Positions 3,866 to 12,169 of a stretch of DNA of 12,169 nt are shown piece by piece (position 1 is the first letter of the stretch; every line of letters begins with the position of its first letter). The stretch covers positions 1 through 12,169 of the forward strand of contig JAFROU010000035.1 of the NCBI GenBank assembly GCA_017429465.1, read 5' to 3'. This DNA comes from Candidatus Saccharimonadota bacterium (GTDB taxonomy: Bacteria; Patescibacteria; Saccharimonadia; Saccharimonadales; Nanosyncoccaceae). The position numbers were made by a program, and so were the translations under genes. The notes below the pieces were generated by a model, which was not told the origin of the DNA, ran no database searches, and was given only the letters and a program-made list of their open reading frames with translations.

Positions 3866-4745
3866 CTTTAAATTCCGCCGGTAATTCTGTCTTAAAAATT
3901 TGACGATTCCCTTTTCCGTCTGGGCCAGGGATGGTTATTTCTAATTCTTTTGCATGTAGATAAAGCCTGTCAGCCTTTTGACCGGTGCCATAAACTTCGT
4001 CTCCGAGGATTGGCGTGCCAAGATATTTAAGGTGAACACGTAGTTGATGAGTGCGACCGGTGGTTGGTTTTAATTCGAGTAAGGAATACTTGTCATTGGA
4101 TTTTATGACTTTATAGTAGGTTTGGGCCGGTTTGCCATTAGCATCAACCTGAAAAGTGGTTGGATGTTTGAGATTGCGTGCTAGTGGTAGATCAATTACG
4201 GCTTCATCTAGCTTTGGATGGCCCTCAACTACCGCATAGTATGTTTTATGTGATTTACGATCTTGAAACTGTTTTCGTAGGAGCTTTTGCGTCTCCTCGT
4301 TCTTTGCCAGAATTACCACTCCAGACGTACCGCGGTCTAGACGATGGACTAAAAGACCATAGTTTTCTAGCGTTGGTTCATCACATTGCTCACCTTTAGC
4401 CATACTCAGTAGTCCGACTGGCTTATTGATGACTTTTACATTGTCGTCTTCATATATTATTGGCAGGTCCGGCAGATCTATTTGTTTTTCTGGTACTTTA
4501 AGTGTGATTTTGGCAGATTCAATGATTTGTGCGTTTGGTTTAGTCACGATTTTTTGATCTACTGTAACATAGCCTTTTTTTATAAAAGACTGGATGGACG
4601 AACGATTATAATTTGGATATTTTTGGACAAGAAAAAGATCTAGACGGATTTTTGGCTCCGGTAGCGGTTCATCGGCTAGCGCTTTGTCGCCGTTAATAAT
4701 ACGGGACATTTCAGGTTTGCTGAATTTTTTTCCTGTAATAATCAT
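3855..4745 (-). CDS. RluA-family 23S rRNA pseudouridine synthase (S4 domain-containing)
   Basis: 296 residues. After a short N-terminal extension (1-33), residues 34-75 form an S4 RNA-binding domain (RLDLFLVQKYPNYNRSSIQS then GYVTVDQ). The catalytic domain follows: IIYEDDNVKVINKPVGLL (97-114), motif II HRLDRGTSGVVILAKN (134-149) with catalytic Asp137, KTYYAVVEG (167-175), and GRTHQLRVHL (230-239) with GDEVYG (248-253). The enzyme isomerises uridine to pseudouridine in structured RNA; S4-bearing RluA members (RluC/RluD type) mostly act on 23S rRNA. The exact target uridine cannot be read from sequence, so no symbol is given. The ATG at 4745 overlaps the trpS stop as ATGA and has no Shine-Dalgarno motif, which suggests coupled translation; Met13 is a possible alternative start. 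Length and all key residues are normal. Confidence 0.95.
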   Translation of the reverse strand: MIITGKKFSKPEMSRIINGDKALADEPLPEPKIRLDLFLVQKYPNYNRSSIQSFIKKGYVTVDQKIVTKPNAQIIESAKITLKVPEKQIDLPDLPIIYEDDNVKVINKPVGLLSMAKGEQCDEPTLENYGLLVHRLDRGTSGVVILAKNEETQKLLRKQFQDRKSHKTYYAVVEGHPKLDEAVIDLPLARNLKHPTTFQVDANGKPAQTYYKVIKSNDKYSLLELKPTTGRTHQLRVHLKYLGTPILGDEVYGTGQKADRLYLHAKELEITIPGPDGKGNRQIFKTELPAEFKDVF

Positions 4746-5755
4746 CGGAGGTTAAAGGCCTTTTGTACCTGCAGCAGTTTTGCTCCAGCCACTTGGTTTG
4801 CATAGGTCTCACCAGCTTCTAGCAACTGTTTTACATAATCGTCTGGGATTTCAGCGAGCTTAGTTTGAAAGTCTTGCAAGAACGTAGAAACACTTTCGGC
4901 CACCTTTTGTTTTAAATCGCCGTAGGATGTTTCTCCGGACCAAGTGGAAATAACATCTTGAAGTGGCATGTCATTGACGAGGGCCTCAATCTGTAGGAGA
5001 TTACTAATGCCTGGTTGATTAAACATATCAAACTTGATTTTACCAACTGAGTCGGTAGTAGCGGACATAATCTTTTTTGCGGCTTTAGCTGGTTCGTCCG
5101 ATAGCATAATTTTACTGTTTTCGGCGGCAGTTGATTTGCTCATTTTCTTCTCTGGATTTAGTAGATCGCGGATGCGAATACCAGTATCAGTCCCCATAAA
5201 CTTAGCCTGATCGATGGTTTTGGCTGGTATTGTAAAAATATCGCCAAAACGATTGTTGAAGCGTATTGCAATATTGCGGGTTAATTCAAGGTGCTGGAAC
5301 TGGTCTTCTCCTACAGGAACGTAGGTGGCGTCATAAAGCAAGATGTCGGCAGCCATTAGTACTGGATAGTTGAAAATACCAACGTTGACGGATTCTTTAC
5401 CTTCACCCTTTTCTTTATACTGCGTCATGCGATTGAGTTCGCCCATATTGGCAACACAATCAAGAATCCAACAAAGCTCAGAATGAGCTGGGACGTGGGA
5501 CTGTCGATAAATATGGATATTATTATTAACTTGCAAACCGGCAGCAAGGTAGTATTTGATCGACTTGATTAGATTGGCTTGAAGATCGCCATCTACTTCT
5601 GAAATGATGGTGTGGAGATCTGGAATGAAAATATTTACATTGGAGTCCCCGGAGTGTTGATTGGCTAGACGCACCATTGGTAGTAAAGCACCGAGGAAAT
5701 TTCCAAGCGTTAACTCGCCATTGACACGAATGCCAGTTAAAATCGTGTTTTTCAT
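4742..5755 (-). CDS. trpS: Tryptophanyl-tRNA synthetase
   Basis: 337 residues, normal length for bacterial TrpRS, a class Ic aminoacyl-tRNA synthetase that charges tRNA-Trp with tryptophan using ATP in the cytosol. The HIGH-equivalent is TLGN (16-19) after ILTGIRVNGE. Characteristic TrpRS segments follow: FIPDLHTI (43-50), NYPVLMAADILLYDATYVPV (129-148), GEDQFQHLELTR (149-160), and a perfect KMSKS (204-208) in NPEKKMSKS. It is the first gene of the minus-strand cluster and ends in TGA overlapping the start of the pseudouridine synthase. There is no Shine-Dalgarno motif; an extended -10 lies 6 nt before the ATG, so the mRNA is probably leaderless. No tryptophan-responsive leader, T-box or attenuator can fit in the space upstream. 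Confidence 0.97.
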   Translation of the reverse strand: MKNTILTGIRVNGELTLGNFLGALLPMVRLANQHSGDSNVNIFIPDLHTIISEVDGDLQANLIKSIKYYLAAGLQVNNNIHIYRQSHVPAHSELCWILDCVANMGELNRMTQYKEKGEGKESVNVGIFNYPVLMAADILLYDATYVPVGEDQFQHLELTRNIAIRFNNRFGDIFTIPAKTIDQAKFMGTDTGIRIRDLLNPEKKMSKSTAAENSKIMLSDEPAKAAKKIMSATTDSVGKIKFDMFNQPGISNLLQIEALVNDMPLQDVISTWSGETSYGDLKQKVAESVSTFLQDFQTKLAEIPDDYVKQLLEAGETYANQVAGAKLLQVQKAFNLR

Positions 5756-5761
5756 ATTTTC

Positions 5762-5770
5762 ATTATAGCA
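5762..5770 (-). promoter_or_regulatory. trpS: Extended -10 promoter of trpS (leaderless transcript predicted)
   Basis: TGCTATAAT on the minus strand, 6 nt (GAAAAT) before the ATG. The last base of a -10 hexamer is usually at -7, so the start point falls on the ATG itself. No good -35 is seen at 16-18 bp (A-rich only), as often with extended -10 promoters. It sits in the 14-mer GATATGCTATAATG (5761-5774), shared exactly with the TPR gene. Confidence 0.7.
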
Positions 5771-5812
5771 TATCTAGCACAGAGCTTTTTTATGGTAATT
5801 TATGAAAATGTG

Positions 5813-5821
5813 TGATATAAT
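5813..5821 (+). promoter_or_regulatory. Extended -10 promoter of tRNA-Ala
   Basis: TGATATAAT, an extended -10 with consensus TATAAT at 5816-5821. It ends 8 nt before the mature tRNA 5' end, so transcription should begin within a base or two of the tRNA. The -35 region is not recognisable. It is divergent from the trpS promoter, with the two -10 hexamers about 48 bp apart. Confidence 0.7.
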
Positions 5822-5829
5822 TTGATAGA

Positions 5830-5905
5830 GGGGTGCTAGCTCATTTGGTAGAGCGCTTCCATGGCATGGAAGAGGTGAGGAGTTCGAATCTCCTGCACTC
5901 CACCA
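5830..5905 (+). tRNA. tRNA-Ala, anticodon GGC
   Basis: A 76-nt full cloverleaf with encoded CCA (5903-5905). Acceptor stem GGGGTGC/GCACTCC carries the G3:U70 wobble that identifies alanine tRNAs. D stem is GCTC/GAGC with a GG-containing loop. Anticodon stem CTTCC/GGAAG encloses the loop ATGGCAT (5861-5867), anticodon GGC at 5863-5865, reading GCC and GCU. The T arm is AGGAG-TTCGAAT-CTCCT. Loop positions 32 and 38 are A and U, the pairing known to be conserved in tRNA-Ala(GGC), where it restrains miscoding. It has its own promoter and terminator. Confidence 0.98.
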
Positions 5906-5917
5906 TGTTATGTTGCT

Positions 5918-5940
5918 GAGGTTGAAAAACCTCCTTTTTT
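5918..5940 (+). terminator. Rho-independent terminator of tRNA-Ala
   Basis: Perfect 6-bp stem GAGGTT/AACCTC with a GAAA tetraloop, followed by C and six T. It starts 12 nt after the tRNA CCA end. Confidence 0.85.
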
Positions 5941-5954
5941 GTTACGTAATATAT

Positions 5955-5982
5955 TTGACTTTTTAAGATTTCTTGCTATAAT
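5955..5982 (+). promoter_or_regulatory. Strong promoter of the unassigned ncRNA
   Basis: TTGACT (5955-5960, 5/6) and TATAAT (5977-5982, 6/6) with 16-bp spacing and an upstream TGC making an extended -10 (TGCTATAAT). It is the best promoter in the window by eye, with a predicted start near 5989. It lies directly after the tRNA terminator, so the downstream stretch is an independent transcription unit. Confidence 0.8.
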
Positions 5983-5988
5983 AATTAG

Positions 5989-6326
5989 CGATCGTACTGC
6001 GTACTCCTACGGGACCGCAGTTTCTGATTTGGTCGGGCCCTGTAGAGGACCTGATGGTTCTTTACAAATATTTCGGGCCGGCCGCCTAGAGCCACGTCTT
6101 AACGCATGCGTTAGTGATGTGGGATGCGGCACGCATGATTCTGTATGGCGCTGACTAGTGTAGTTGCGCTAACTGATCCCGTCATACACAGCATAGTTGA
6201 CTATGTCTGTGCTGACGAAGACCAGTAGGTCATTAACGGCCGCAGTGCGGTCTGTTTAAGAGTTTAACTCTTACAGACCTTGGAGCCCCATTCGGGTTCG
6301 CTCATTTGGGGCTCCTATTCATTTTT
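5989..6326 (+). ncRNA. Unassigned structured non-coding RNA, about 340 nt
   Basis: Transcribed from the strong promoter at 5955-5982. The stretch is visibly GC-richer than its AT-rich surroundings and holds no credible gene. It is dense in complementary segments: 5996-6001/6016-6021 (ACTGCG/CGCAGT); 6031-6034/6048-6051; 6092-6095/6119-6122 enclosing the palindrome AACGCATGCGTT (6101-6112); 6124-6128/6132-6136 (ATGCG, triloop, CGCAT); a long hairpin 6181-6216 (GTCA, CACAG, CATAG around a TTGA loop); 6220-6223/6228-6231; 6249-6279 (GGTCTGT..ACAGACC capped by AAGAG/CTCTT); and 6282-6315. I looked for signatures of tmRNA (tRNA-like ends, Ala-rich tag), RNase P RNA (GAGGAAAGTCC, ACAGAAA), SRP RNA and 6S RNA and found none. 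The 3' end could be after 6315-6326 or at the terminator ending at 6389. That an RNA is made is inferred; its class and function are unknown. Confidence 0.6.
6282..6326 (+). terminator. GC-rich hairpin with T-rich tail closing the ncRNA
   Basis: Perfect 9-bp stem GGAGCCCCA (6282-6290) / TGGGGCTCC (6307-6315), a 16-nt loop, then TATTCATTTTT. The T tract is interrupted, so it may be a terminator or the final structural helix of the RNA, backed up by the hairpins that follow. Confidence 0.55.
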
Positions 6327-6353
6327 CCAACTTACGGTTTTTCCGTAGGTTGG
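6327..6353 (+). other. Stable 11-bp hairpin between the ncRNA and the final terminator
   Basis: CCAACTTACGG / CCGTAGGTTGG around a TTTTT loop, 11 pairs including one G-T. It is followed by CTTCTAATTT rather than a T run, so it is not a classical terminator. It could be a 3' domain of the ncRNA or a processing or stability element. Confidence 0.5.
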
Positions 6354-6365
6354 CTTCTAATTTGG

Positions 6366-6389
6366 CCGCCCCATTAGGGGCGGTTTTTT
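6366..6389 (+). terminator. Strong Rho-independent terminator
   Basis: 7-bp all-GC stem CCGCCCC/GGGGCGG with an ATTA loop and six T. It ends transcription from the tRNA/ncRNA side and shields the surface protein B promoter that starts 22 bp later. Confidence 0.9.
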
Positions 6390-6411
6390 ATGATTATGTC
6401 GTAAAAAGCCC

Positions 6412-6440
6412 TTGTGCTTTTTATATATATTCTGTAGAAT
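6412..6440 (+). promoter_or_regulatory. Candidate promoter of surface protein B
   Basis: TTGTGC (6412-6417, 3/6) and TAGAAT (6435-6440, 5/6) with 17-bp spacing; predicted start near 6447, giving a leader of about 48 nt. The -35 is overlapped by a 7-bp inverted repeat, AAAAAGC (6403-6409) / GCTTTTT (6416-6422), which could be an operator, a weak AT-rich terminator, or chance. Confidence 0.45.
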
Positions 6441-6447
6441 TGAGGTA

Positions 6448-6494
6448 GGCACCTTTTTGGGAGGTGCTGTGGAACAAACCAAAAAATAGGTCAT
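6448..6494 (+). promoter_or_regulatory. Structured leader of surface protein B: hairpin over the GGAGG motif plus a six-codon upstream reading frame
   Basis: A 7-bp stem pairs 6448-6454 (GGCACCT core) with 6462-6468 (AGGTGCT), placing the perfect GGGAGG (6459-6464) in its loop and 3' arm. GGAGG lies 30 nt before the ATG of surface protein B, far beyond normal spacing. It is correctly placed for a GTG at 6469 that opens a mini-ORF, MEQTKK, ending in TAG at 6487-6489, 5 nt before the ATG at 6495. The ATG itself has only a weak TAGG before it. Translation by reinitiation after the mini-ORF is plausible but inferred. Confidence 0.4.
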
Positions 6495-9400
6495 ATGCAA
6501 ACAAGAATAAAACAGATAAAAAATATACTGTTTCTAACGTGGCTTTTTGTCGCGTTTTTTGCATTTGATAAGACCGCGTTTGCCGCAGCAAATACTCCTT
6601 CCCTGTCTCTTAGTTCTAGTACTATTTCTGTACAGATTAATCTTAATGAATTCAATATTTTAAAAACTGGTAATACAACTATTTCGGTTACTACCACCAA
6701 TCCAACTGGATATACTCTTACTCTCGCAACATCTGGAACTAACACTAATCTTATTTCGGGGTCGAATACAATTCCAACTCTTACTGCCAATAGTTCTTCC
6801 AATAACTTCCCTATAGGCAGATGGGGGTATTCGTTAGATAACAATACATTCAAGCCTGCCCCTAGTAAATCTGGTTCTGGCGATGTTCTTGCTTCTACTA
6901 CTGTTTCCAATACTATGGCCAATTCTTATGAACTATATGTAGGTGCTAAGGTGGCGAATACGCAGCCATCGGGTAATTATACTAATAGTTTTACGGTGAC
7001 AGCGGTGGCTAACCCAATTAATTACACACTATCTTTCAACGCTAATGGCGGTTCTAATAATCCAGCTACTCAAACTGTTTCGTCTAATGCAGAATCTCAT
7101 ACCTTTACTATTCCTTCCTCTAACCCGACAAAGACCGGATATACCTTTAAGGGCTGGTGTTCGAGCACGATTAGCGGAAATAATGGGACTTCTGCTCCAA
7201 GTTGTTCTGGCTCGTCTTATTCTTCAGGTGCTTCCGTTACGCTTTCTTATACTTCTCCGTCACTAACGCTTAATGCGATGTGGCAGAGGAATACTGCAAC
7301 TGTTAAGCTTGGGACTAAAGTTAATGTCACCAAGGTGTATTACGGGACTAGCGTTGATGCTATTAATACCGAATTAACAACTTCTGGTTTTACTGCAGCC
7401 TCTAACACTACTTATTACTTTAGGGCTGATGTGCCCGCTGGATATACTTTCTCTGCTTGGTCTGGTTGGTTTACTGGGTCGGATGATACTTATTCTACCG
7501 GTAAATCATTTACTACTAATGGTGGAACTTATACCGTCAACGCTGACGCTGCGGCTAACCCTTATACTGTGACGTTTAAGTCTTATGATGGTGCTACCAC
7601 TTACGGTACTCAGTCATTTACTTATGGTACTTCTGCCGCACTACGTGCGCGTACTGGTTCAGGCTGGACGGTGACACCCACGGCTCCAGTTAATAAAGTC
7701 TTTTATGGCTGGTCAATCACTTCTAATTCGACGACTCGTAGTTATACAGACGGTCAGTCCGTAAGCAATCTTACTACTACCTATAATGGGGACTTTGTGC
7801 TTTATGCGGTTTGGGTGTCAGTGCCGACGACATACCAGATAACCTTTAATCCAAACAATAATACTTCGTTTACGCTTAATGGTACGACTTATACTTCTAC
7901 GACTAGTTTTGATCTTTGCACGACTACAATTGTCTATAACGGTGAAGCCGTACCGACTTCTTGTACTGGGTCGATGACACTTCCAACTGTTAATGCTCCA
8001 ACAGGTTTTACTGTGGCTGGTTGGTCAACTACTTCAACTGGTACCTATAATCCGGACTATTCTTCTGGCGCCACAAATGTTAGTTTGACCTCCGGCACTA
8101 CTCTATATGCCCAGTCTTATAAGCCAGACATTGTTTATACTGCCACTCCACTTAAGAATGTTAGTAGTGCCACTGGGTCAACTTCATCGGTTTCATGTGT
8201 TGTTCCTGCGGTATATAACGGCGCAACTCAGGGTACTACGTGTAGTGTTAATTTACCGAATAATGGATTCACTTTGACCGGCTGGACTTTTAATGGTTGG
8301 GTGGGCACCGGTACCTCTTCCACTACTGCTGAGACTTCTGGTTTGTCTCCTCAAACTACGCTTTACCTTACTGGTAGCACAAATATTGTTGCTACTTGGA
8401 AAAAAGACGTTGAAGTAACCCTTAATGTGGCATTTAATGCTAATGGAGGAAGTGAAGATTTGTCTGCCTCTACTGTTGTGACGAGAACTCTATATAATGG
8501 TAATACTACTCTTAATACGACCGTTTCTATTATTGCGCCGGCTTGTACGACTTATACAGGCTTTACCTGCCTAGGATATGATTCTTCTAGCACTGCTACG
8601 ACAGCTTCTTGGACGGCCGGTACGTCTAAAGATTTTGCAATAAATGCTGAAATACCATTATCCGTTTCAACACTAACATCAGCTCGCACTGTGTATCATA
8701 TCTGGCAAGCAAATAATTTTACTATTGTTTATAACGGAAACGGGGGGGCTGGTAGTATGTCTGGTTATCAGCATGCGAATGTTAGCGAAGGTAGTTCTAT
8801 TAACCTTTATTCTTCAAACTTTAGTAGATCTGGCTATGGCTTTGCGGGCTGGTCATTTAACTCGAATTCAACCGTCAATGGTAGTTCTACTATTTATGGT
8901 CCTAACGCTACTATCACTATTCCTTCAGGTGTTTATGCTCAATATGGATCCTCTGGCACATTAAATCTTTATGCTGTTTGGGTCGCTTCTGAAGGCACAT
9001 TACAATCTTGGATTGGTTGCAGCAGTCTTAGCTCAGGCGCAATTACGGCGCTTACTGATGTAAGAGATAATCATACGTATGCTATAGCTAAACTTGGAGA
9101 TGGCAATTGTTGGATGATTGAAAATTTGCGTTTTGATCCAGCTAATAAGACTATTACGACCAGTAATACAAATTCTCCTACTTTTGATTTTGTCACTAAG
9201 GCTGCTGCAGTAACAAGCTCTAGCTTTGATGCTTGTAATTATGGTGTTACTTACTGTAAAGACACTTATTCTGTTGGAATGGGTAATGTCACAGGTTCTT
9301 CCAGTAGTCCAAACAGCGGCGGGCAGCCATCTCGTTGGTTTTCTTATGGTGCTATCTATAATTGGTATACAGCTACAGCTGGCAATGGTACATATAACAT

Positions 9401-12169
9401 GGCTAGTGGTACAACGGCCGGGGATATTTGTCCAGCCGGCTGGCATCTTCCATATGGCGGTTCTTCTGGCGGTGCTGGTGGCGGTAATACTGTTGGCGGA
9501 TTTTATTATCTTGCCTATACCATTGGTGCTATCAATAATAATGCTAGTAGCTCTACAATATTACGTAATTATCCGAATAATTTTGTTTATTCTGGTGCAT
9601 ATGTTAATTCTGTAACTCAAGGTCGCGGTTCATATAGTGAATTATGGAGTAGTACTGCGTCTAGTAATTCTAATGTATTTTATACATATTTTGGCGCCAC
9701 AGAGGTAAATTATACTAATAAACTTATGGCTAAGTCAAATGGCCTTCCTGTTCGTTGTATAATATCAAACGCTAGTTCTTATTTGGTTCATTTCAACCCG
9801 AACACAAATATTTATTCTGGTGAAATGCTTGACCAAGTAATAAATGTTTGTCAAACGACCTCACTAAGCAAGAATCTATTTACTAGGTCAGTTTCAAGTT
9901 ACAGTGGATACAGATTCACCGGCTGGAACACCAATTCAAACGGTACTGGTACTAGTTATCGCGATGAGGATGATGTTCTTAATCTTACGACGGCGGGTAA
10001 TACATTCACGCTTTACGCTCAATGGGAGCAGGTCGCTGTGATGAGAGTTAATTATCAAGCTAATAATTTATACTTTGGTAATAGCTCTTCGGTTGTGACC
10101 AATACCGTTTATTATTACAATTCATGTAGTCCTTATTATGTTTCGAGCCCATCCTATTCACATACTGCTAACATTAATGATAGTGGTGTTGCAAGTGGTA
10201 CTTATGCGACAAATCTAGCTACAAAGGACGTAGTAACTATTGCCGGCGCTGATTTTATCCGTGCTGAGATATATTACAGTACTGAAAATAACTGGGATAT
10301 GCTTTACGTGTTTCAAGGTGAATATACCGGAAGTGTTACTCGTAGTATGTCTGCCGGGCAGTTAATGACCTATCAGGGTGGTGGGAAAACTGATTATGCT
10401 AATGCTACACATGTCACGCTGGATATTCCTGGAGATAAAGCGACGTTTGCTTTCTATTCTGATTCTTCGAACCAGTATTACGGATATTATGTAGTTGCAA
10501 CTGGTTATTATGCAAACAATCCTGGTAGTTACGCGAGTATAAATCAGGTTTGCTCCCGTGAGGTGGTGTCTGGTTCTTATAAAGTCCCAACCACTACTGA
10601 ATTCCAGAAGTTTCTTGGTTGGAACACAAGCTCATCTGCAACATCTGCGACATATGTTACGCACGATGATATTCTCAATAATCTTTCTGGCAGTAATTCT
10701 CAAACTATTACCGTCTATGCGATTTGGCAAAAACTGCTGAAGGTCAACTTTAATGGTAATGGAGCTAGTTCAGGCGCGACCGCCACAGCTTATATTCCGG
10801 AAAACTCTTCTGGGCTGCTTACTGCCAATGGTTATTTGAGGGATGGATATAAATTTGTTAAATGGACTACTTCTTCGGATGGTACGGGTTCATCATATTT
10901 AAACGGTGCGTATTATAATGTAGGTTCTATTAGTCTGGGTGCTCAAGTGACCCTTTATGCTAACTGGACTATGGTATATTCATTTGCTTATAATGGCAAT
11001 GGGGCTGATTCTGGAACTGGCTATGGTGACATGGCTAATATTAAACAGACAAATATTGGCATAAATGACTATGTTGGTCTATTTGCTTCAAATTATTCTA
11101 GGTCTGGTTATGGTTTCTTAGGTTGGTCAACTACACAGTCGAGTAGCACAGATCGTGCGACATTAAATAATCAAATATCTGCTGGTACACTTAAAGTTTA
11201 TGGCCCTAACGAAGCGGTACTTGTCGATTCTAATTTGCTTAATAAAGCAAATTCAAATAAAATCATTACATTCTATGCCGTTTGGATGAAGGCTGAGACT
11301 TCTGGCTCTACTCCTGTTTATCTCCAAAGTTGGACTGGTTGTTCTGCTTTGACGGCTACGACTTATAATTCTAGTACTTTAATTCAGACCCCTGGTAGCG
11401 TCTATGCTTTAACCGACAGGCGTGACAATAACGTTTATGCTGTGGCTAAACTAGCCGACGGCAACTGCTGGATGATTGAGAACCTAAGAATCAGCTCTGG
11501 AGCGACAACTAGTTCGACTTATTCTCAAGGGTATGGTTCTGGTTTCTCTGGATTAGCTGATAGTGAATACACAAACTTCTCTAACTCTACTACCGCTAAT
11601 ACAAAATATAGTACTACGAATATAACTGGGTCTAATCAGGGATATCGTTTCCCTAGATTTAATAATTACAATATTATTCACCACACGAGCGAAACTACTA
11701 TAGATTATAACCCATCATTTACTGCCTCATTTGCTGCGAGTAGTAATAATGAGCACCCTACTAATTTAAACGTTCCTATTTATAGTTATGGCAATTATTA
11801 TACCTGGGCAGCTGCGACTGCAAATATTAATGACAATACTTCGCTAGTTTCCGTCTCAACCTCTTTGTGTCCAACTGGATGGACTATCCCTTATGGCGGT
11901 GCTTCTGAGGCAACTGGAAATCGTAGTGGCGGGTTTTACTATCTAGGTTCTAAAATTGGGGCGACAAGTTCTAACACTACTTCCTCAAGATCATTACGAA
12001 CTTTCCCAAATAATTTTGTATTTGCAGGCTCATATTATAATAGTAGTATTAGTAATCGTGGGTATAGTATTAATTATTGGACATCTACGAATATTGATAA
12101 TGTACAAGCATATTATACTAGCATAACCTATTCTTCGGTTGCTTTGAGCCCTTCAGTGTATAAGTATTA
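6495..12169 (+). CDS. Giant secreted modular surface protein B (B-repeats, CUB-like domain, two Fib_succ_major-type domains), C-terminus off the right edge
   Basis: The frame is open for 1891 codons to the window edge. Residues 1-30 are a signal peptide (RIKQIK basic start, hydrophobic 11-24, AFA cleavage site at 28-30). Residues about 33-175 match the N-terminal domain of surface protein A (GYTLTL, a WGY/WGF motif, SYELYVGAKVANTQPSGNY). About eleven units of InlB B-repeat type (Flg_new / Listeria-Bacteroides family, marked by FxxNGG, GYxFxGW and LYAxW) follow: seven at about 176-832, one at 1092-1179, one split around a CUB-like domain (1180-1414; CUB-like part about 1246-1340), then 1415-1493 and 1494-1606. 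Two Fibrobacter-succinogenes-major-type domains lie at 833-1091 and from 1607 to the edge, each with DGNCWMIENLR and CPxGW. The composition is rich in Ser, Thr, Asn, Gly and Tyr; cysteines cluster in the Fib_succ domains, suggesting disulfides. It is exported and probably surface-displayed; the anchor is outside the window. A role in adhesion is inferred, the ligand unknown. Confidence 0.93.
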   Translation, partial: MQTRIKQIKNILFLTWLFVAFFAFDKTAFAAANTPSLSLSSSTISVQINLNEFNILKTGNTTISVTTTNPTGYTLTLATSGTNTNLISGSNTIPTLTANSSSNNFPIGRWGYSLDNNTFKPAPSKSGSGDVLASTTVSNTMANSYELYVGAKVANTQPSGNYTNSFTVTAVANPINYTLSFNANGGSNNPATQTVSSNAESHTFTIPSSNPTKTGYTFKGWCSSTISGNNGTSAPSCSGSSYSSGASVTLSYTSPSLTLNAMWQRNTATVKLGTKVNVTKVYYGTSVDAINTELTTSGFTAASNTTYYFRADVPAGYTFSAWSGWFTGSDDTYSTGKSFTTNGGTYTVNADAAANPYTVTFKSYDGATTYGTQSFTYGTSAALRARTGSGWTVTPTAPVNKVFYGWSITSNSTTRSYTDGQSVSNLTTTYNGDFVLYAVWVSVPTTYQITFNPNNNTSFTLNGTTYTSTTSFDLCTTTIVYNGEAVPTSCTGSMTLPTVNAPTGFTVAGWSTTSTGTYNPDYSSGATNVSLTSGTTLYAQSYKPDIVYTATPLKNVSSATGSTSSVSCVVPAVYNGATQGTTCSVNLPNNGFTLTGWTFNGWVGTGTSSTTAETSGLSPQTTLYLTGSTNIVATWKKDVEVTLNVAFNANGGSEDLSASTVVTRTLYNGNTTLNTTVSIIAPACTTYTGFTCLGYDSSSTATTASWTAGTSKDFAINAEIPLSVSTLTSARTVYHIWQANNFTIVYNGNGGAGSMSGYQHANVSEGSSINLYSSNFSRSGYGFAGWSFNSNSTVNGSSTIYGPNATITIPSGVYAQYGSSGTLNLYAVWVASEGTLQSWIGCSSLSSGAITALTDVRDNHTYAIAKLGDGNCWMIENLRFDPANKTITTSNTNSPTFDFVTKAAAVTSSSFDACNYGVTYCKDTYSVGMGNVTGSSSSPNSGGQPSRWFSYGAIYNWYTATAGNGTYNMASGTTAGDICPAGWHLPYGGSSGGAGGGNTVGGFYYLAYTIGAINNNASSSTILRNYPNNFVYSGAYVNSVTQGRGSYSELWSSTASSNSNVFYTYFGATEVNYTNKLMAKSNGLPVRCIISNASSYLVHFNPNTNIYSGEMLDQVINVCQTTSLSKNLFTRSVSSYSGYRFTGWNTNSNGTGTSYRDEDDVLNLTTAGNTFTLYAQWEQVAVMRVNYQANNLYFGNSSSVVTNTVYYYNSCSPYYVSSPSYSHTANINDSGVASGTYATNLATKDVVTIAGADFIRAEIYYSTENNWDMLYVFQGEYTGSVTRSMSAGQLMTYQGGGKTDYANATHVTLDIPGDKATFAFYSDSSNQYYGYYVVATGYYANNPGSYASINQVCSREVVSGSYKVPTTTEFQKFLGWNTSSSATSATYVTHDDILNNLSGSNSQTITVYAIWQKLLKVNFNGNGASSGATATAYIPENSSGLLTANGYLRDGYKFVKWTTSSDGTGSSYLNGAYYNVGSISLGAQVTLYANWTMVYSFAYNGNGADSGTGYGDMANIKQTNIGINDYVGLFASNYSRSGYGFLGWSTTQSSSTDRATLNNQISAGTLKVYGPNEAVLVDSNLLNKANSNKIITFYAVWMKAETSGSTPVYLQSWTGCSALTATTYNSSTLIQTPGSVYALTDRRDNNVYAVAKLADGNCWMIENLRISSGATTSSTYSQGYGSGFSGLADSEYTNFSNSTTANTKYSTTNITGSNQGYRFPRFNNYNIIHHTSETTIDYNPSFTASFAASSNNEHPTNLNVPIYSYGNYYTWAAATANINDNTSLVSVSTSLCPTGWTIPYGGASEATGNRSGGFYYLGSKIGATSSNTTSSRSLRTFPNNFVFAGSYYNSSISNRGYSINYWTSTNIDNVQAYYTSITYSSVALSPSVYKY
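8715..9764 (+). repeat. Duplicated super-module, copy 1 (B-repeat plus Fib_succ_major domain)
   Basis: Within surface protein B, residues 741-1090. It begins with YNGNG and SGYGFAGWS, passes YGPN and LYAVW, and continues into LQSWIGCSSL, ALTDVRDN, AKLGDGNCWMIENLR, CPAGWHLPYGG, GGFYYL, YPNNFVYSG and LPVRC. Copy 2 lies about 2.26-2.36 kb further on. The two are alike in protein but differ at many synonymous positions, so the duplication is old and kept by selection on the protein. Confidence 0.75.
10974..12169 (+). repeat. Duplicated super-module, copy 2 (truncated by the window edge)
   Basis: Within surface protein B, from residue 1494. It repeats the order of copy 1: YNGNG, SGYGFLGWS, YGPN, FYAVW, LQSWTGCSAL, ALTDRRDN, AKLADGNCWMIENLR, CPTGWTIPYGG, GGFYYL, FPNNFVFAG. 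The spacing between copies grows from 753 codons at YNGNG to 786 codons at WMIENLR, because copy 2 has longer loops. Confidence 0.75.

Follow-up and report, generated by a model that had tools for sequence, protein, structure and literature searches.

The closest described counterparts of the locus reported here are ROOL and GOLLD, which are described as large, highly structured, non-coding and accessory RNAs of unknown function that are often found near tRNA islands, many GOLLD RNAs being longer than 800 nt (PMC12286853). The raiA-motif RNA (ModT) is described as a stand-alone structured bacterial RNA conserved in more than 2,500 species (PMC11706538). In this study we describe a stretch of DNA from an uncultured Saccharibacterium, at 5989-6389 of a window of 12,169 nt (the whole stretch of DNA that was analysed), which looks from its sequence like the gene of a strongly folded non-coding RNA of about 400 nt. 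The ROOL, GOLLD and OLE families are included in Rfam, raiA has an Rfam model as well, and 6S RNA has the shape of one long bulged hairpin. Our preferred reading, which we hold with moderate confidence, is that of a stand-alone, lineage-restricted accessory RNA gene whose folded product would act in trans. It draws on features predicted from the DNA: a promoter, an excess of folding, terminators, the lack of a protein, of a known family and of a relative in the genomes searched, and a variable site. The RNA is probably a young or fast-changing accessory RNA. Among the best matches in the open-licence PMC literature, none was seen that deals with structured or non-coding RNA in this lineage.

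The proposed RNA lies between a tRNA-Ala gene and the gene of a large surface protein (Table 1). The best segment of the window's TrpRS is 80-81% identical to that of the nearest Saccharibacteria in the genome collection, many of which come from rumen or gut according to their record titles; the best 80 of 136 confirmed relatives were kept as trpS loci. A second large surface protein with Listeria-Bacteroides repeats is encoded at 2-2218 of the window on the minus strand, and the two surface proteins flank a block comprising TPR, DNA polymerase III delta-like, RluA-like, TrpRS and tRNA-Ala genes. The right-hand surface protein (6495-12167) contains two WMIENLR modules. In base composition the RNA differs from its surroundings, with a GC content of 0.53, 0.50 and 0.47 in the three 200-base windows within 6000-6399 against 0.33-0.44 in all other 200-base windows from 5400 to 6999, in agreement with an earlier sequence-only reading of the same DNA, which had noticed a GC-rich stretch of about 400 bp.

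Table 1. Coordinates of the predicted features of the locus and of the element found behind tRNA genes in relatives (window positions unless a locus is given)
Feature	Position	Strand	Basis or remark
TrpRS gene	4742..5755	-	divergent from tRNA-Ala; context
tRNA-Ala (GGC)	5830..5905	+	upstream of RNA; Rfam (5830-5902) and ARAGORN
Terminator-like hairpin of tRNA-Ala	5918-5933		3' of tRNA-Ala; terminator scan
Promoter TTGACT-16-TATAAT, extended -10 (TG)	5955..5982	+	scan, 11/12
Proposed RNA	5989..6389	+	start inferred from -10 box, end from last terminator U-run
Hairpin P1, inner stem ACUGCG/CGCAGU, cap UCC-UACG-GGA	5990..6029	+	pair probability of inner stems 0.97, 0.94; outer 0.72
Hairpin P2, long stem UGGUCGG-CCC-UGUAGAGGACC	6030..6084	+	mean pair probability 0.78, 0.97, 1.00
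Hairpin P3, 7+6 bp, CAUG loop in 12-nt perfect palindrome AACGCAUGCGUU	6092..6122	+	pair probability 1.00, 0.96
Central branched domain P4, closing stem UGCGGC/GCCGCA and three hairpins	6125..6244	+	pair probability of closing stem 0.94, 0.89
P4 hairpins	6146-6171, 6180-6217, 6220-6231	+	pair probability of two larger 0.90-0.99; smallest 0.68
P4 weak inner stems	6137-6140/6175-6178, 6143-6144/6172-6173	+	pair probability 0.44, 0.62
Hairpin P5, GGUCUGU..ACAGACC and AAGAGU..ACUCUU	6249..6279	+	mean pair probability 0.95, 0.94
3' hairpin T1, 9 bp, weak U-rich tail	6282..6315	+	hairpin search
3' hairpin T2, 11 bp (one G-U)	6327..6353	+	terminator scan
Terminator T3, 9-bp stem 6364-6385 and U-run	6364..6389	+	terminator scan
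Candidate promoter of surface-protein gene, TTGTGC-17-TAGAAT	6412..6440	+	weak, 8/12
Large surface protein, Listeria-Bacteroides repeats	6495..12167	+	downstream context, outside RNA; Pfam
tRNA-tail element copies in relatives	L022:5335-5483, L024:9695-9843, L026:9687-9837, L045:9675-9824	-
tRNA-tail element copies in relatives	L013:5650-5795 and 1239-1391	-
tRNA-tail element copies in relatives, among others	L077:8130-8277, L112:1645-1795

The predicted promoter resembles the kind found before tRNA genes. A loose scan returned 1 site where 1.4 were expected, so that a promoter-like site as such is unsurprising. At 11/12 or better the window has 2 sites, of which only the one at 5955-5982 carries the TG of an extended -10 box; shuffled 12-kb windows hold 0.57 sites of this quality with or without TG and 0.04 with it, which bears out the near-consensus promoter (TTGACT, 16 bp) of the sequence-only reading. 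When regions upstream of genes were compared with this promoter, at least 18 of 28 positions were identical in 33 of 248 tRNA upstreams versus 30 of 1476 ORF upstreams. The tRNA set was derived from 254 tRNAs, 6 being dropped as duplicate or cut short, and it is dominated by tRNA-Ala (74/248) and tRNA-Thr (68/248) because the sampled loci surround trpS. Twelve loci of the genus were recovered through the promoter alone, and 8 of these run, by eye, into tRNA-Glu-like sequence.

Judged by its reading frames, the region 5989-6389 does not encode a protein. The longest of them (71 aa, 5939-6154) begins ahead of the promoter, is matched by no Pfam family at E 0.01 and by none of about 5.8 billion proteins at E 10, and the other nine frames listed in 5985-6395 are all of 47 aa or less; the absence of credible coding asserted by the sequence-only reading is thereby upheld. 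Nor did the searches point to a described RNA. At the gathering cut-off of Rfam 15 the whole window gives only the tRNA at 5830-5902, and the relaxed threshold gives 12 matches in 5900-6500, many of them on the terminators and all far below their cut-offs (the best, MicF, reaches 20.7 bits against a cut-off of 79). RNase P RNA (RF00010) was not matched in the window at the gathering cut-off, nor in 5900-6500 at the relaxed threshold, and the same is true of 6S RNA (RF00013) in the window and in 5900-6500. The ornate RNAs ROOL, GOLLD and OLE gave no Rfam match in the window at the gathering cut-off or in 5900-6500 at the relaxed threshold, and for tmRNA, ARAGORN reports only tRNA-Ala in the window. 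By these searches the RNA is a member of no family tested. The Rfam scan of the RNA region that had been suggested as a check thus returned no family over threshold, and the proposal of an RNA gene without a family is supported by this result together with the promoter, the terminators and the fold.

The fold itself is predicted to be extensive. Of its 25 helices, 18 have a mean pair probability of at least 0.90, the weakest reaching 0.44, and 5989-6389 folds at -184 kcal/mol (z -10.3), a value that none of 100 shuffles reached. Because z is raised by terminator hairpins in tandem, the body was refolded without the 3' hairpins, giving z -6.2 for 5989-6281 and z -5.5 for 5989-6245, both of them below the lowest value (-4.9) among 200 random 257-nt windows of a relative, G002. 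The abundance of complementary segments noticed earlier corresponds to an excess over shuffled sequence in the body alone as well. On the minus strand the two stretches reach z -5.5 (5989-6281) and z -4.2 (5989-6245), so that this strand is well folded too and the folding preference for the plus strand is modest. Transcripts of 13 lengths were folded and the structures of 3 were examined. The RNA ending at 6390 has the P1-P5 architecture of Table 1. When the transcript stops at 6375, about six pairs form between the 5' domain and the 5' arm of T3; when it extends to 6510, the closing stem of P4 gives way to other pairing. Three points of the modelling might be held against an RNA gene: a fold from one sequence does not prove that an RNA is functional; the minus strand is nearly as good at folding, as would also be the case for a DNA palindrome; and the stems that close P1, P2 and P4 are rearranged in the folds ending at 6375 or 6510, with the hairpins persisting.

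At the 3' side, a terminator scan of 5750-6600 found 6 terminator-like sites where 0.9 were expected. T2 and T3 are among the six, and T1 (6282-6315) is absent from the scan's list. T3, the last of the three tandem hairpins, is by its sequence a good terminator. A 9-bp hairpin, an 11-bp hairpin and an all-GC terminator had been proposed here; the hairpins and the terminator stand, and the all-GC stem does not, T3 having 7 G-C and 2 G-U pairs. These hairpins bear on the alternative that the stretch is a cis-acting leader of the surface-protein gene, in which the structured part would sense something and the 3' hairpins would attenuate read-through. The gene starts on the same strand, 106 bases past the last terminator, and its own promoter candidate is weak (8/12, as are three further candidates in 6401-6487); the alternative pairings in the folds ending at 6375 and 6510 make some switching conceivable. 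However, three tandem hairpins stand between RNA and gene, and the alternative of about six pairs at 6375, among the 3 of 13 lengths with examined structures, has fewer pairs than the terminator stem with its 9 and no longer appears once the transcript reaches 6390. Moreover, locus L025 has a related surface protein (29-37% identical to those of the window) 129 nt behind tRNA-Ala without the RNA or any such leader, the 129-nt spacer having a GC content of 0.26 and z -1.5. Overall we regard a leader as rather unlikely. In an antisense test, the RNA paired with six local gene starts no better than with shuffled targets, and this result, taken with the hairpins that persist in all examined folds, speaks on balance for a folded RNA acting as such rather than for an antisense RNA or, less firmly, an attenuator.

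The stretch 3' of tRNA-Ala is, by comparison of sequences, variable among relatives. Among 50 of the 80 trpS loci whose neighbourhood was surveyed, tRNA-Ala(GGC) is oriented as in the window and lies within 400 nt of trpS in 27, is on the other strand in 6 and is absent from the stretch in 17. The next ORF of at least 100 aa follows at 16 to 824 nt from tRNA-Ala in the 27 loci; it is RluA-like by its first residues in 5 (L006, L015, L043, L047, L051), similar by blastp to the surface proteins of the window in 5 (L025, L026, L032, L038, L045) and something else in 17.

Relatives carry a multi-copy, covarying structured element of about 150 nt behind tRNA genes (Ala, Tyr, Glu, Trp, Arg, Val, Ile, Leu), for which we built a model, R3, from six aligned structured spacers behind tRNA-Ala. 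The spacers were picked by a core motif, 3 of the 9 pattern matches (L004, L063, L166) having been dropped by eye as unrelated. RNAalifold predicts 39 pairs for the six copies; in 28 of these at least one sequence is changed on both sides with the pair kept, and as many as 2 of the 6 sequences fail to form some of the outer pairs. In the 80 loci plus the window, R3 gave 25 matches at E <=1, some of them partial and the training copies matching by construction; none lies in the window. Two matches, one of them a training copy, were found in 51 sources including most of G002, and 57 at E 0.01 in 8 of 9 genomes, a set in which G022, G024 and G026 were included because of known copies and in which G138 had none. 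We examined 40 copies, of which 4 are the same places seen twice. A same-strand tRNA stands just before the element in 28 of the 40, at a distance of 33-54 nt in 25 of these 28; in 6 further copies a tRNA on the opposite strand is close by, and in 6 there is no tRNA near. An exact copy of the tRNA 3' end, 11-19 nt long, occurs at the far end of the element in 23/40 copies (a raw count). At the Rfam gathering threshold seven element loci gave tRNA matches only. The element looks like either a mobile element targeting tRNA ends or a new RNA family. Beside intact tRNA genes at L163:5746-6615, L028 and L117, incomplete or disrupted tRNA copies were recognised by eye, and these are possibly linked to the element.

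The same comparison bears on the alternative that the RNA stretch is a palindromic remnant of a mobile element or integration behind a tRNA gene, which would fold as DNA and whose promoter and terminators would be incidental. Such an origin would fit the variability after tRNA-Ala, the presence of palindromic elements at the same spot in several relatives and the good folding of both strands. But with filters off, R3 scores the window RNA at 5.1 bits or less, and for this reason the RNA is not taken to be a tRNA-tail element; the 3' end of the tRNA, searched at up to 3 mismatches, occurs a single time in the window, within the tRNA itself; the inverted pairs around the RNA are only short and imperfect (10-12 nt); and a strong promoter and terminators lie on one strand. 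We therefore consider a remnant of this kind improbable.

Relatives of the RNA itself were sought at several distances. A blastn search with the body (5989-6362) against 174 genomes of the nearest genus (that of G004) gave no credible match: 10 places in 9 genomes at E <=0.1, the best at 0.008, which is chance level, and all listed matches span 33 nt of the query or less. By eye the displayed ones read as coding sequence and chance, the one in L153 (G065) resembling a RecG-type coding stretch. As a control, rnpB of G002, searched for in the same way, was recovered from 153 of the 174 genomes at E 0.001. The rnpB matches in G013, G079, G108 and G120 fall into two parts around query position 112-119, separated by about 100-130 additional bases, as if a variable stem were enlarged or something had been inserted. 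In the 80 trpS loci blastn found no match to the RNA, only one 48-nt match in L022 (E 0.005) to window positions 6403-6450, beyond the RNA, and nhmmer, by which the sequence-only reading had proposed to collect homologues, found none there. When promoter and RNA were searched together, the 34 genomes behind L001-L035 gave promoter, terminator and chance-level matches only (26 of 34 with something at E 1), and in a sample of 147 genomes, which overlaps with the 174, the 18 matching at E 0.01 comprised 12 promoter and 6 terminator matches. One promoter match with GC-rich DNA behind it, L097, was considered as a relative and rejected, since by eye it resembles the template region of a diversity-generating retroelement; L097:1500-2080, GC-rich and behind a tRNA-type promoter, is matched neither by Rfam nor by ARAGORN.

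Covariance models built on the single sequence extended the search to larger samples. R1 (5' domain, 96 nt) gave 1/394 in the family sample (E 0.996) and 1/241 in the order sample (E 0.5), and R2 (middle, 154 nt) 1/394 in the family sample (E 0.67) and 0/361 at E 0.1 in the phylum sample, all taken as chance. These runs were made under the stricter filters of Infernal and included no positive control, and the two samples of 394 appear to share most of their genomes. R2 on the 80 trpS loci and R1 on 11 loci found nothing save the window itself where it was included. Collections of phages and plasmids held no match to the RNA; in viral contigs three exact patterns occurred at 9, 0 and 0 loci, and R1 found nothing in the 9. 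A scan of the gaps of G002 (669,131 bases, without 57,809 bases of contig C3) listed 87, and the 22 with the lowest z include no clear counterpart, being by eye RNase P RNA, tRNAs and leader-like or pseudo-tRNA regions. No repeat common to the RNA and the rest of the window was better than E 0.24.

The sequence-only reading had also allowed for a diverged raiA, 6S or RNase P RNA. This idea is not supported, as a diverged housekeeping RNA is unlikely when the body has no match across the genus and rnpB is recovered in most of the same genomes. In 24 relatives (G001-G008, G010, G012, G014-G027) RNase P RNA lies above its cut-off in 20 and tmRNA in 18, and the Rfam model of 6S RNA at E 1 detects none in any of the 24. 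The same model detects 6 of 14 controls, for which reason the non-detection is weak evidence either way; 6S RNA may be absent or unrecognised in the lineage. That the window RNA is a strongly diverged housekeeping RNA, above all 6S RNA, is very improbable: an unrecognised RNA could serve the function in these relatives, but the window RNA is about twice as long as the 187-position Rfam 6S model, shows no match to it even at the relaxed threshold and was not recovered from relatives that yield rnpB and tmRNA. Nothing ties the RNA to the open 6S slot.

Under the preferred reading of a stand-alone accessory RNA gene, we infer transcription, transcript ends, action in trans and a scaffold role as follows. 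RNA polymerase would start near 5989 from the strong tRNA-type promoter and transcribe about 390-400 nt. The folded product would begin with the two hairpins P1 and P2 at its 5' side, followed by P3, the branched central domain P4 and the fifth hairpin, P5; transcription would be stopped by one of the three hairpins in tandem at the 3' side, T3 (6364-6389) being the likeliest. Most likely the product would act in trans as a folded RNA, either as a protein-binding or as an RNA-only scaffold, its gene being carried, on this reading, in a variable island behind tRNA-Ala. If real, this would be a structured RNA of about 400 nt without family or detected relative in a lineage of small genomes (about 0.3-1.2 Mb in the listed relatives), where there should be a reason for bearing the cost of such an RNA. 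It would also show the origin or turnover of accessory structured RNAs in Saccharibacteria to be fast. The negative search, with its rnpB control, argues against an overlooked core RNA of the genus. As a class the novelty of the RNA is unproven, because it stands alone. By analogy, it might belong to a new class of accessory ornate RNAs in Saccharibacteria, that is a particle of RNA only or of RNA and protein, built on a tRNA-promoter-driven RNA of about 400 nt, a small analogue of ROOL and GOLLD in islands behind tRNA genes of these host-dependent bacteria, whose palindromic CAUG hairpin would allow it to pair with itself; this we hold to be a doubtful, low-probability extension.

Among the known systems, 6S RNA is likewise a stand-alone structured RNA, whereas the window RNA is predicted to have several hairpins and a different length, and no match to 6S was seen at the relaxed threshold. 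The raiA-motif RNA (ModT) is also stand-alone and structured (PMC11706538); the window RNA differs in having no Rfam match and in showing no conservation in the genus searched, compared with the more than 2,500 species of raiA (PMC11706538). The tRNA-tail element of relatives is structured as well and lies directly behind tRNA-Ala in several of them, but by model it is not homologous to the window RNA, which has a promoter of its own and no extra copy of the tRNA 3' end. With ROOL and GOLLD the differences are the lack of an Rfam match and of a conserved core in our searches, a length of about 400 nt as compared with more than 800 nt for many GOLLD RNAs (PMC12286853), and, with regard to the phage and prophage examples, the fact that no protein of the window has a Pfam match pointing to a phage gene. 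The likeness lies in their general character, namely large, structured, non-coding and accessory RNAs often near tRNA islands (PMC12286853), and both the name ROOL (PMC12286853) and the record titles of the window's nearest relatives point to rumen or gut. ROOL and GOLLD would serve as a precedent for accessory structured RNAs of unknown function close to tRNA genes, and by analogy the window RNA possibly works like them.
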